64,000 nucleotides of DNA from Halobacteriales archaeon QS_8_69_73 (GTDB taxonomy: Archaea; Halobacteriota; Halobacteria; Halobacteriales; Haloarculaceae). The stretch is from positions 23,508 through 87,507 of the forward strand of contig PXRZ01000003.1 of NCBI GenBank assembly GCA_003022945.1. The letters run 5' to 3'. Below, piece by piece: positions 23,358 to 53,792 of this stretch (within the stretch, counting starts at the first letter, position 1; every line of letters starts with the position of its first letter). A model generated the notes under the pieces. That model was not told where the DNA came from, did not search any database, and was given only the letters and a program-made list of their open reading frames with translations. Position numbers and translations under genes: made by a program.

Positions 23358-23852
23358 ATGAACAAGGAGGGACACGTCCTCAACGCCGTACTACTGGGAG
23401 TCGGACTCGGGTTCGTCCTCGAGCCGTCCGCGACGGTCGAGACGCTCCGGACGGTCGCCGCCGTCACCGTTCCGGTGACGCTGGGGGCGCTGCTGCCGGA
23501 CGTCGACACGGCCTTCGGTACGCACCGGAAGACGCTGCACAACCTGCCGGTGCTGGCGGTCTTCCTCGCCTTCCCGGTCGCCTTCGGGAACCTCGCGTAC
23601 GTCTGGATCGGCGTGCTCACCCACTACGTGTTGGACGTTCTCGGGAGTACACGCGGCATCGCGCTGTTCTACCCGCTGTCGAGCAGCGAGTTCGGCTTCC
23701 CGGCGGGCGTCACCACCTCGAGCCGGTTCGCCAACGTCGTCACAGTCGCGGTGACGGTCGTCGAACTCGCCGCCGCCGCGGCGCTCGTGCACCTCCTCCC
23801 GCGGTACGTCGACACGTCGGCCGTCACCGACCTCGCCGCCATCGCCGGCTGA
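23358..23852 (+). CDS. membrane-bound metal-dependent hydrolase (YdjM type)
   Basis: A 164-aa polytopic protein. The pattern NKEGHVLNAVLLGVGLGFVL, GALLPDVDT, HRKTLHNLPVLAVFL and HYVLDVLGSTRGIALFYPLS supplies the conserved His/Asp residues of the YdjM/DUF457 family of membrane metal-dependent hydrolases. The substrate is unknown. Confidence 0.85.
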   Translation: MNKEGHVLNAVLLGVGLGFVLEPSATVETLRTVAAVTVPVTLGALLPDVDTAFGTHRKTLHNLPVLAVFLAFPVAFGNLAYVWIGVLTHYVLDVLGSTRGIALFYPLSSSEFGFPAGVTTSSRFANVVTVAVTVVELAAAAALVHLLPRYVDTSAVTDLAAIAG

Positions 23853-32596: not shown

Positions 32597-33578
32597 ATGG
32601 AGGAGCCAACGCGTCGCCGCCTGCTCGCGGCGACCGCGGGCGTCGCCGCCGGCCTCGCTGGCTGTTCGAGCGAGCAGCTCACCGCGTCGCCGGCGACGGA
32701 CCCGCCGGAGCCGGTCGAGCGCCGGGTCTCCGACGACGACCGCGGGTCGCCGTACACCGGCGTCTACGAGTCGGCCATCGACTCCGTCGCCTTCGTCCGC
32801 GGCGACGGCGGCGGCGGGTCGGCGTTCGTCCGCGAGGACTATCTCGTCACCAACCAGCACGTCGTCGACGGCGCCGACGAGATGGACGTCCGGTTCGAGC
32901 GCGGCGACTGGGCGGCCGCCGATGTCGTCGCGACCGACGTCTACGCGGACCTGGCGGTGCTGTCGACCGACATTCCGGAGTACGCGTCGCCACTGTCGTT
33001 CGTCGAGGGCGTCCCGCCGGTCGGCACGGAGGTGGTCGCCCTCGGGAGCCCGTTCGGGCTGGAGTCGTCGCTGTCGACGGGCGTCGTCAGCGGCCGGAAC
33101 CGCTCGCTGCGGAGCCCGACCGGCTTCGCCATCCCGAACACCGTCCAGACGGACGCGGGGCTCGATCCGGGCAACAGCGGCGGCCCGCTGCTGACGCTGG
33201 ACGGCGCCGTCACCGGCATCGCGGTCGCGGGCGCGGGCAACAGCGTCGGCTTCGCCGTCTCGCCGCTGCTGGCCCGGCGGGTGCTGCCGGAGCTGGTCGA
33301 GTCGGGCGACTACGACCACCCGTTCCTCGGCATCTCGCTGCAATCGGTGACGCCGGCCATCGCCGAGGCGAACGAACTCGACCGCGTGCGCGGTGTCATC
33401 GTCGTCGACGTGCTGCCGGCGGGTCCGTCCGACCAGACGCTCCAGGGCGCCGACGGCGAGACGACCGTCGACGGGCGCTCGGTGCCCGTCGGCGGCGACG
33501 TCATCGTCGAACTCGCCGGCAACGAAGCGGCAGGAAATCGAGGTGCCGATCGGCACCCGCCCGGCGCCGCAGGGGTAG
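32597..33578 (+). pseudogene. Tat-exported HtrA/Deg-like serine protease lipoprotein, PDZ domain broken
   Basis: A trypsin-fold surface protease. The N-terminus is a Tat lipoprotein signal (TRRRLLAATAGVAAGLAGCS). The triad is visible: His in VTNQHVVDG, Asp in DVYADLAVLS, Ser in LDPGNSGGPLL. The PDZ domain starts (HPFLGISLQSVTPAIAEANE, GGDVIVELAG) but after about 33523 the frame is lost; the expected C-terminus QEIEVPIGTRPAPQG and a stop at 33578 are in another frame. Roughly a third of the PDZ domain is missing. The intact first frame would read on uselessly to 34528. Confidence 0.8.
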
Positions 33579-33619
33579 AGCACCCCGCCCGGTCGGCCGC
33601 CCGGCCGTACCACCAGGCA

Positions 33620-33624
33620 TTTTT
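33620..33624 (+). promoter_or_regulatory. promoter element of CocE-type hydrolase gene
   Basis: TTTTT centred 26 nt before the ATG at 33648. Confidence 0.5.
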
Positions 33625-33647
33625 GCAATCCGGTGTAGAACGGAACC

Positions 33648-35765
33648 ATGGAGGAGCCGAAGCTCGACAGGCGGTCGGTACTGCAGGCGACGGGCGCGCT
33701 CGCCGGCGCCGGGGCGCTGGGACTGCTCGGCGGCGGGGCGGCCGCCGCCGACCCGGAAATCGAGACGACGACCGGCGCGACGGAGCCGCGGTTCGGGGCG
33801 GCCGAGCCGGAGGAGTTCTACGTCGAGGTCGAGATGGCCTTCAAGAACGTCGACGGCGACGAGGTGACGGAGACGCCGACGCTGTACGGCGAGATCATCC
33901 GGCCGACCGACGGCGGCGAGCCGGTCGCGGACGTGCCGGTGATACTGACGTACACGCCGTACGGCGACCTCTACCAGGCGCTGAGCGCCGGCGACAGCCC
34001 CGCCGACGACGGCGTCGCCGACTATTTCGTGCCGCGCGGCTACGCACGGGCGACGTTCGACCTCATCGGCTGCCGCAACTCCGGCGGCTACTACGACTAC
34101 GGCGGGATTCGCGAGCGGCTCAGCGGAAAAAAGCTGGTCGACGCCCTCGGCGAGTTCGACTGGACCAACGGCAACGTCGGCATGACCGGTGGCTCCTACG
34201 ACGGGACGACCCAGTACGCGGCGGCGATCGAGACGCCGGAGCACCTCGAGGCCATCGTCCCGCAGGTGGCCATCGACCGTTGGTACGACTACCGCTACTT
34301 CGGGGGCGTGCCCCGCAGCACGGTCGGGACGCCGACGCTGTTCGACTTCGGCTTCGCGGCCACGCCGGGTCACGCCCGCGACGACCAGGGCCACAACGTC
34401 GAGGTGACGGCCGCGCGGATCGAACCGGGCCGCCGGGCGGAGTTCGAGCGCCGCTCCTACGAGTACGACCCCGAGTACGACGAGTTCTGGGTCGAACGGG
34501 AGTACCGCCGCCGCGCCGGCGACGTTGACTGTGCGGTGATGATCGAGGGCGGCTGGGAGGACCGCAACGTCATCCGCTGGGGGTCGACGCGGTTCTTCGA
34601 GGCGCTGAAGGCCGCCGACCACGACCCCGTTCGGCTGATCATGGGCGATTGGGGCCACAGCTACCCGGAGTACCCCGACAGCCGCGACCTCCAGCACGCC
34701 CTCTACGACGAGTACCTGCTCGACGGCGACGAGGCGTGGCTGGACGTCGACCCCTCGACGAACGTCATGGACCTGCCGGCCGCCGACGTCGAGTCGGCCT
34801 CGACCCCGCGGCAGCAGTTCGAGACGTGGCCGCCGGCCGACGCCAGCGAGTTCGCGCTGCCGTTCGTCGGCGGCGAGCCGGCGGCCGGCGAGCTCGGGCT
34901 CGTCGGTACCGACGCCGCGACCTGGGAGGACCGCTCGCCGCCCGTCTCCGAGGCCGACTTCTTCGAGGAGCGCGGCTCCGGCGACCGCTATCTGATGTTC
35001 GAAACGCCCGAACTCGACGACGGTCTATGGTTCACCGGCCGCGTCACCGCCGACCTGCTGGCGAACTCCACCGACGACACCTGGTACACGGCGGTCGTCT
35101 ACGAACGGCGGCCCGACGGGAGCGTCCGGCCGTTCGCCCGCGGGGCGCGGAACTCGCTGTTCCGGAACGGCGACGTCGAGCCGGCACCGACGCCGACCGA
35201 CGGGTCCTACCGCGTCGGCGTCGAGCCGTGGGACAGCAACTGGGAGCTGTCGGCGGGGTCGCGGCTCGGGGTCGTGATCGCCTCGGACAACGACGACTAC
35301 GTCCGACACGACCCGACCAACCGGAGTTCGAACGAGCTCGTCCTCGGGGAGTCGGCACTGCGGTTCGAGGGGGTCGCCGAGGGCGTCGACGCGCCGTCGT
35401 TCCCCGACGCCTCGCTGTCGGCGACAATCGACTCCGAGACGTACACCGGCGGACAGACGGCCCGGGTGGAGCTGACCGTCGAGTCCGCCGGCGGGCCGGT
35501 CCGCGTCCGCGACCGGCTGCCGGACGACTGGACGGTCGCCGGCGGCGCCGTCACGACCGAGGAGGTCGCCGGGACGACCTACGTCGAGGCCGACGCGCCG
35601 GTCGCAGCGGGCGAGACGGTCACCTACTTCGCGGAGGCGCCCGCGACGCCGGAGGCGTCCGACGAGTACGCCTTCGGCCCGGCGGAGTACGGCGACGCGG
35701 GCGAGCTGTGGGCGACGGCCGACGGCACCGGCCGGACGGTGTACGTCGTCGGCGTCGAGACCTGA
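33648..35765 (+). CDS. Tat-secreted CocE/NonD family hydrolase (X-Pro dipeptidyl-peptidase-like)
   Basis: A 705-aa secreted alpha/beta hydrolase. The Tat signal is DRRSVLQATGALAGAGALGL with an AAAAD cleavage region. The nucleophile is in GMTGGSYDGTTQYAAA, an acid in the GDVDCAVMIEGGWED region, and the His in LIMGDWGHSYPEYPD. A C-terminal beta-sandwich (X-PepD_C type) and an additional CARDB-like domain (TYTGGQTARVELTVESAGGP) follow. Substrates may be peptides or esters. Confidence 0.88.
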   Translation: MEEPKLDRRSVLQATGALAGAGALGLLGGGAAAADPEIETTTGATEPRFGAAEPEEFYVEVEMAFKNVDGDEVTETPTLYGEIIRPTDGGEPVADVPVILTYTPYGDLYQALSAGDSPADDGVADYFVPRGYARATFDLIGCRNSGGYYDYGGIRERLSGKKLVDALGEFDWTNGNVGMTGGSYDGTTQYAAAIETPEHLEAIVPQVAIDRWYDYRYFGGVPRSTVGTPTLFDFGFAATPGHARDDQGHNVEVTAARIEPGRRAEFERRSYEYDPEYDEFWVEREYRRRAGDVDCAVMIEGGWEDRNVIRWGSTRFFEALKAADHDPVRLIMGDWGHSYPEYPDSRDLQHALYDEYLLDGDEAWLDVDPSTNVMDLPAADVESASTPRQQFETWPPADASEFALPFVGGEPAAGELGLVGTDAATWEDRSPPVSEADFFEERGSGDRYLMFETPELDDGLWFTGRVTADLLANSTDDTWYTAVVYERRPDGSVRPFARGARNSLFRNGDVEPAPTPTDGSYRVGVEPWDSNWELSAGSRLGVVIASDNDDYVRHDPTNRSSNELVLGESALRFEGVAEGVDAPSFPDASLSATIDSETYTGGQTARVELTVESAGGPVRVRDRLPDDWTVAGGAVTTEEVAGTTYVEADAPVAAGETVTYFAEAPATPEASDEYAFGPAEYGDAGELWATADGTGRTVYVVGVET

Positions 35766-36475: not shown

Positions 36476-36824
36476 ATGGAGGCCAGCGCCGAAACCGTCG
36501 TCGACCGTCCCCGGCGGGCGGTGTTCGAGTTCATGGACGTCCCGGAGAACCAGGCGCGCATCTCGCCGCGGCTGTCGACCGTCGAGACGGTCGGCGTCCT
36601 CGACGGCGGCGGCAAGCGCGCCCGGTACGTCTACCGGCTGTTCGGCGTCTCCTTCGACGGCGAGGTCCGGCGCCGACGGCGGCACACGGGTCACCTACAC
36701 CGCCGACTACGACCTGGGGCTGCCGCGGGTGGTCGGACGGCTGGTCGCGCCACTGGCCGCGCGGTTCAACCGCCGCGAGCTCAAGCGGACCCTCGAGAAC
36801 CTCGAGACCCGACTCTCGGGATAG
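36476..36824 (+). pseudogene. SRPBCC/polyketide cyclase-like protein with internal deletion
   Basis: ATG at 36476 gives MEASAETVVDRPRRAVFEFM and YRLFGVSFDGEV in frame; the reading then jumps to ADGGTRVTYTADYDLGLPRV, VGRLVAPLAARFNRRELKRT and a stop at 36824 in another frame. Compared with the family, about two dozen residues of the central sheet are absent, so the lesion is a deletion of tens of bases, not a single indel. The promoter TTTT at 36447-36450 is intact. Confidence 0.7.
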
Positions 36825-36874
36825 CGTCGCCGTCAGTCGGTCCGTTCGGCGTCACCCTCTCTGTTGGGTGGTCG

Positions 36875-36906: not shown

Positions 36907-37664
36907 ATGACATCGTTACCAGCGACTGCCGCATCGTTCGTATCGGTTCCGCTGCAGGAGTCGGCCAGTCAGGCCGATCTGTTCGAGTACATCCTCGGCG
37001 ACGCGCTGCTCGCCAGCTCGCTGTACGTCAATATCGCGCTGGCGGGGCTGGCGATACTGGTTTTCGCCGGGCTGGCGCGGGGAATCGAGGACCCGCGGGC
37101 GAAGCTCATCGTCATCGCGACGATGACGGTTCCGGTGGTCTCGCTCGCGAGCTACACCGGTCTCGTCTCGGGACTGACGGTCAGCATCCTCGAGATGCCG
37201 GCCGGCCATCCGGCCGTCGACGGCTCCTACGTGACAGTCGGCGGCCAGGAGGGTGTCGTCTCGCTGTGGGGGAGGTATCTGACGTGGGCGCTGTCGACGC
37301 CGGCGATTCTACTGGCGCTCGGCCTGCTGGCCGGCTCGAACGTCACCAAGTTGCTGACGGCCATCGTCTTCGACATCGCGATGTGTGTCACCGGGCTGAC
37401 GGCGGCGCTGACGACCTCCAGCCTCGCGCTGCGGTGGTTCTGGTTCCTGATGAGCTGTGCGTTCTTCGTCGTCGTCCTGTACATCCTGAGGGGCTGGCGC
37501 TGCTGCCGGTCGGGGTGACGTCGTGGGCCTACAGCGCCCTCGACATCGTCGCGAAGTACCTCTTCGGCTTCCTGGTCGTCCGCTACGTCGCCGACGAGCC
37601 GCGTGGCGTCATCGCCGGCGGTGACTACGGCGCCACCTCCGGCGTCACGCCGGCCGACGACTGA
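36907..37664 (+). pseudogene. hop: halorhodopsin lacking helix F
   Basis: A light-driven chloride pump gene. Helices A-E are in frame from ATG 36907, including the chloride-pump helix C GRYLTWALSTPAILLALGLL with the Thr-Ser-Ala triad and TKLLTAIVFDIAMCVTGL. After VVVLYIL at about 37485 the frame breaks. Helix G follows in another frame, ALLPVGVTSWAYSALDIVAK with the retinal Lys, and ends TPADD at 37664. About 40 residues between E and G, that is helix F with its WLGYP region, are missing. As written no functional pump can be made. The rest is close to the Natronomonas pharaonis type. Confidence 0.88.
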
Positions 37665-37710: not shown

Positions 37711-37795
37711 GCCGAGGTAGCCTAGCCCGGCCAAGGCGGTTGCTTCGAGAGCAACTGTCCGTCAGGACTCGTGAGTTCAAATCTCACCCTCGGCG
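37711..37795 (+). tRNA. tRNA-Ser (anticodon CGA)
   Basis: An 85-nt class II tRNA without intron. Acceptor GCCGAGG pairs with CCTCGGC; D arm GCC/GGC; anticodon stem GTTGC/GCAAC around loop TTCGAGA (anticodon CGA, reads UCG); variable stem GTCC/GGAC; T arm GTGAG/CTCAC with loop TTCAAAT; discriminator G. CCA is not encoded. Confidence 0.95.
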
Positions 37796-38152
37796 TTTCT
37801 ACGACGAACCGACGCCGCGCAGTGCCGAGCCCAGCGAGACACGACCGAAGGGAGCGTCTCGATACAGGTGAGCGGCGAAGCCGCGAGCCCAGCGAGGCCT
37901 GCGCGAGACCCGTGAGTCGGAGAAGCGCCATCGTGGGTTCGAGCCCTGGAAGACGAGCGAAGCGAGTCTTCCTCCGGTTCAAATCTCACCCTCGGCGCTT
38001 TCTGTCGCGACCGACGGGCGAGGAGCGACGCGACGGGCGAGTCCATCCGCGACGGAACACGTCGTGAATCTAAACCCTGCCGGGCGCGCGCGGCGAACGC
38101 GAGCGGGCGAGCGCGTCCGGCTCCGGTCGAATCTCGACCCTCGGCGCTTTCC
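37776..38152 (+). repeat. tandem duplications of the tRNA-Ser 3' end (att-like)
   Basis: The tRNA 3' end TTCAAATCTCACCCTCGGCG (37776-37795) recurs exactly at 37978-37997 and in diverged form at about 38124-38145 (GTCGAATCTCGACCCTCGGC). The last two share flanks (CTCCGGT before, GCTTTC after). A direct repeat CGAGCCCAGCGAG occurs at 37826-37838 and 37884-37896. This is the pattern left by integrative elements that use a tRNA gene as attachment site. No integrase is in the window. The 736 bases between the tRNA and 38531 contain no convincing gene. Confidence 0.6.
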
Positions 38153-52993: not shown

Positions 52994-53792
52994 ATGAGCG
53001 ACACCGACGACGAAACCGGAGACGGCTCTCAGGAACGTGCGGCGTCCGGCGCCCCCAAGTCCGGGCGAGCGGTCCCGAACATGTTCTCGGCCGGCGAGAT
53101 ATTCGAACGCGTCATCGCCAGCGCGGCCGAAGAGATAGACTCGGGCAAGAAGACCCTGTTTTTCAGCGGTGTGACGGCCGGCTTCGCCATCGTGATACCA
53201 GCTCTACACCGAGAACACGCTGCCGCCGGTGGCGCTGGTCCTGGCACGCCGCGCCAGCTACCCGATGCTGATACGCGTCTGGGGGATCGTCATCGTCGGC
53301 AACCTCGTCGGCGCGGCGCTCGGGGCGTATCCCCTCGCCGTCACCGAGGTGCTCTCCCCGGAGGCGATGGAGGCGGGCCAGGAGTTCACTGAAAAGGGCC
53401 TCGAACACGGCTGGCTGACCGTGTTCACCAAGGCGGTCTTCGCCGGGTGGCTCGTCGCCGGCATCGTCTGGCTGGACCACGCCGCCCAGGACACCATCTC
53501 CCGTCTCCTCCAGGTGTACGTCATCTTCTACACCATCGCTGCGGCCGAGTTGTACCACGTCATCACCGCCGCGGCCGACGCCTTCTTCTATCTGTTCGTC
53601 ACCGGGGCGAGTCCGGTCGTCGTCTTTTCGACGTACTGGCTCCCGATACTCCTCGGGAACACGGTCGGCGGCGTGCTGCTGTTCACGCTGGTCAACTACG
53701 CCCGGATGGACGATTCGGACCTGTCGGACAGCTCCCTGCTGAGCCCCCGAGAGATGTTCCTGAGCTGGCGCGGCGGTCCGGACAAGCTGTAG
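52994..53792 (+). pseudogene. formate/nitrite transporter family protein with internal deletion
   Basis: An FNT channel gene. ATG at 52994; the N-terminal NMFSAGEIFERVIASAAEEI and TLFFSGVTAGFAIVI are in frame. After about 53200 the protein resumes in another frame as QLYTENTLPPVALVLARRAS, LIRVWGIVIVGNLVGAALGA and on to FLSWRGGPDKL, stop 53792. The stretch between, normally holding helix 2 and its GRYQLYTEN lead-in, is missing. The anion it would carry is unknown. Confidence 0.8.

Follow-up and report, generated by a model that had tools for sequence, protein, structure and literature searches.

A halorhodopsin gene without helix F in a haloarchaeal draft genome is almost certainly an assembly artefact

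The halorhodopsin gene of Halobacteriales archaeon QS_8_69_73, as assembled, lacks helix F, and we conclude with near certainty that this absence is an assembly artefact, one of many joins in a fragmented draft at which about 70–140 real bases are missing. In the organism itself the halorhodopsin is most likely ordinary and complete. The window analysed here is a 64,000-nucleotide stretch of contig C3 in draft G000 (2.63 Mb, 79 contigs, 76.3% complete). A sequence-only reading of the window had proposed either a recent loss of light-driven chloride import in the strain or the omission of about 115 bases by the assembly. The second proposal is strongly supported by similar losses across the draft and by N-gaps that are all too short; the first fails, because the same repeat-free losses are found in many genes, including the only gene for seryl-tRNA synthetase (SerRS).

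The halorhodopsin gene and its relatives

The assembled gene consists of two pieces in different frames that meet at a blunt join:

36907..37488, + strand: halorhodopsin 5' piece, residues 1–194, helices A–E; 99.5% identity to residues 1–194 of the intact 291-aa protein of relative G011; Pfam PF01036
37488..37664, + strand: halorhodopsin 3' piece, residues 234–291, helix G with the retinal lysine, in the other frame; 96.6% identity to G011 residues 234–291
37488..37488, no strand: blunt join in halorhodopsin; 118 bases of near relatives absent; 117 bases between the flanking blocks in G011, G007 and G016

The open reading frame at 36907–37518 (203 aa) follows halorhodopsin as far as ...VVVLYIL and then continues for nine out-of-frame residues to a stop; the second frame restarts at 37488 with ALLPVGVTSWAYSALDIVAKYLFGF, which contains the retinal lysine. 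The earlier reading described the surviving parts correctly: helices A–E are present in the matching residues 1–194, with the chloride-pump Thr-Ser-Ala motif of helix C visible in the translation as LTWALSTPAILLALG, and helix G follows in residues 234–291 of the downstream frame, with its retinal-binding lysine in ALDIVAKYLFGF. Its estimate of some 40 codons, or about 115 bases, missing after VVVLYIL was also close, as the measured net loss at 37488 is 118 bases (39 codons + 1), a length that shifts the frame. The absent segment (69% G+C versus 71% for the contig) encodes the end of helix E, the E–F loop and helix F.

Domain searches gave the same picture. The Pfam Bac_rhodopsin profile (PF01036) matched the first piece over profile positions 4–145 (4.8e-27) and the second over positions 188–222 (9.5e-5, under the curated cut-off), so that the assembly holds the seven-helix domain only in part and in two frames. 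The top solved-structure match of the first piece was halorhodopsin 3a7k_A (E 3.7e-77, over residues 8–193). Both pieces are 97–99% identical to G011 and otherwise undamaged, and any repeat at the join is limited to about one base. A search of the draft itself for the 118-base segment found only the two flanks.

Comparison with relatives, which the earlier reading had suggested, placed the loss. A search of 84,980 genomes found locus L005 (complete, 291 aa), whose protein is 99% identical in the first 193 residues, and locus L006 (complete, 290 aa), at 91%. A search of 60 related genomes returned G011, G007 and G016 (a near-complete genome), with first-piece identities of 98%, 91% and 83%, respectively; for G011 the nucleotide identity is 97%. 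L005 and G011 are probably one genome, as are L006 and G007, and we count these as two relatives, not four. In each of G011, G007 and G016, 117 bases separate the two alignment blocks. Since the relatives carry the segment and the window is without 118 bases, the loss lies on the window's side.

Immediately downstream of halorhodopsin is a tRNA-Ser (CGA) gene at 37711–37795, the last 19 bases of whose 3' end are repeated exactly at 37979–37997, about 200 bases on. Such an arrangement is like that at an integration site. L005 and L006 showed additional similarity matches to the tRNA-Ser/repeat stretch.

Losses and broken genes across the draft

Contigs C3, C2 and C8 were compared by alignment with contigs 27, 6 and 10 of G011, over 178 kb at about 94% identity. 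In this alignment, net losses of 70–140 bases number 19 in the present draft versus 2 in G011 (88 and 140 bases), itself a draft without some segments. They measure 95, 71, 83, 71, 78, 89, 83, 118, 108 and 104 bases in C3; 88 and 78 in C2; and 94, 82, 77, 137, 111, 85 and 118 in C8. All but one (18 of 19) are joins without Ns, the exception being the 78-base loss in C3, which is an N-run. Such joins occur about every 9 kb in the compared contigs, and those within the window lie at 33525, 36669, 37488, 41058 and 53193. Apart from halorhodopsin, the affected features in the window are:

32597..33575, + strand: HtrA-like serine protease with its frame broken by an 89-base loss at 33525; the G011 protein aligns by tblastn as residues 1–314 in frame 1 and 340–356 in frame 2
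36476..36825, + strand: SRPBCC-like gene upstream of halorhodopsin, its frame broken by a net 83-base loss at 36669; the G011 open frame spans the missing segment
41058..41059, no strand: blunt join at which 108 bases are missing, among them the 3' end of one gene
52994..53789, + strand: formate/nitrite-transporter-like gene with its frame broken by a 104-base loss at 53193; the G011 protein aligns by tblastn as residues 1–69 in frame 1 and 104–301 in frame 2

The three contigs also show blunt losses of 370–2645 bases relative to G011, outside the 70–140 class. A constant under-estimate does not account for losses above 300 bases, some of which may reflect true differences between the genomes. 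At 33578–35128 the draft has about 1.55 kb, the 5' portion of a CocE-like hydrolase gene, versus 158 bases in G011; this length difference may instead stem from a flaw in the G011 assembly.

Ten loss-containing genes, halorhodopsin included, were picked and their G011 proteins compared with the draft by tblastn. Eight of the ten gave two pieces in different frames: MTAP, GatB, HtrA, halorhodopsin, the formate/nitrite transporter, EtfB, SerRS and a uracil-DNA-glycosylase-like gene. For Trm1 the 3' part alone was recovered, and the frame break in the SRPBCC-like gene was read by eye. Gene names come from reading the translations, with a family profile also matched for halorhodopsin, SerRS and isoleucyl-tRNA synthetase (IleRS) only. 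SMC adjoins a DNA-level loss, but it gave a single in-frame protein match and is not counted as broken.

Two of the broken genes encode aminoacyl-tRNA synthetases. SerRS is split into residues 1–192 in frame 2 and 221–457 in frame 1 (tblastn), with its join at position 60203 of contig C8, and a family search of the draft for a second SerRS returned a single gene above cut-off, at the broken place. IleRS, identified by the tRNA-synt_1 profile and its translation, likewise lies in two frames, near a 31-base gap, and is the only IleRS. A cell without SerRS or IleRS is unable to make protein, and these breaks therefore cannot exist in a living genome. The break in halorhodopsin belongs with them.

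A real, recent 118-base deletion that inactivated halorhodopsin in this strain would also leave a clean join and a frameshift. We nevertheless hold it to be highly improbable: the halorhodopsin loss is one of 19 look-alikes in three contigs, some of them in genes that cells cannot lose; the gene is otherwise free of decay; and the genome's two other rhodopsin genes are open. These further genes (L139, 3900–4800, – strand; L140, 7000–7900, + strand) are intact across the full Pfam domain; their motifs suggest a proton pump in one case (DWLFTTPLLLLD) and a sensory rhodopsin in the other. Were helix F truly deleted, the two pieces might be expressed, or light-driven chloride import might have been lost while the other rhodopsins were kept, readings to which we give very little credence. 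Judged by titles and abstracts, none of the papers listed by a search for halorhodopsin pseudogenes appears to deal with a missing helix F.

A mixture of strains, in which some cells of the population carry the deletion and the assembler took that path, is the least probable account of all: variant paths are possible in principle if the population was mixed, and fragmentation suggests mixing while nothing proves it, but around twenty deletions of comparable size, including ones in SerRS and GatB, would have had to arise independently in these contigs, each in viable cells.

Scaffold gaps as a probable source of missing bases

The preferred explanation, an assembly artefact, is also supported by the scaffold gaps of the draft. 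Six N-runs were found in 781 kb, and all six are shorter than the matching G011 interval (N-run/interval: 37/115, 78/158, 96/193, 157/307, 204/347 and 176/438), with shortfalls of 78–262 bases. Scaffold gaps were thus misestimated in one direction, every N-run being too short. The 37-N gap, at 23471–23507 of contig C3, abuts the start of the window; its G011 interval is the one of 115 bases.

From these observations we infer gap under-estimation as the mechanism. Paired reads would have linked two contigs, with a gap estimate that fell short by some 80 bases or more; where that estimate came out at zero or below, the contigs would have been set end to end without Ns. With gaps under-estimated by about 80–140 bases, true gaps of that size would vanish, and the blunt losses are of just this size. 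One such join would have landed between helix E and helix G.

Implications and known systems

Loss of the halorhodopsin gene is very unlikely, and the break should not be treated as a real feature. This removes a false gene-loss claim, and any other split or frameshifted gene in the draft is best taken for an artefact pending a check against reads. Agreement between the size of blunt losses and the size of N-run shortfalls offers a simple, read-free sign of such drafts.

Metagenome assemblies are known to contain local errors at scaffold joins that leave incomplete or incorrect genes, and the IDBA-UD assembler is suspected of being especially prone to them (PMC7111523). The present draft shares with those cases missing bases at joins, broken genes and many affected places per draft, and it shows many like defects in one assembly, indispensable genes included. 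The formal test for such errors is a lack of read support; for the present draft, gap under-estimation is the proposed mechanism. The gene itself resembles haloarchaeal halorhodopsins (3a7k and others) in its sequence match, its Thr-Ser-Ala motif and the retinal lysine of helix G; it departs from them in that this assembly lacks helix F together with its loop ends, which the relatives retain intact.
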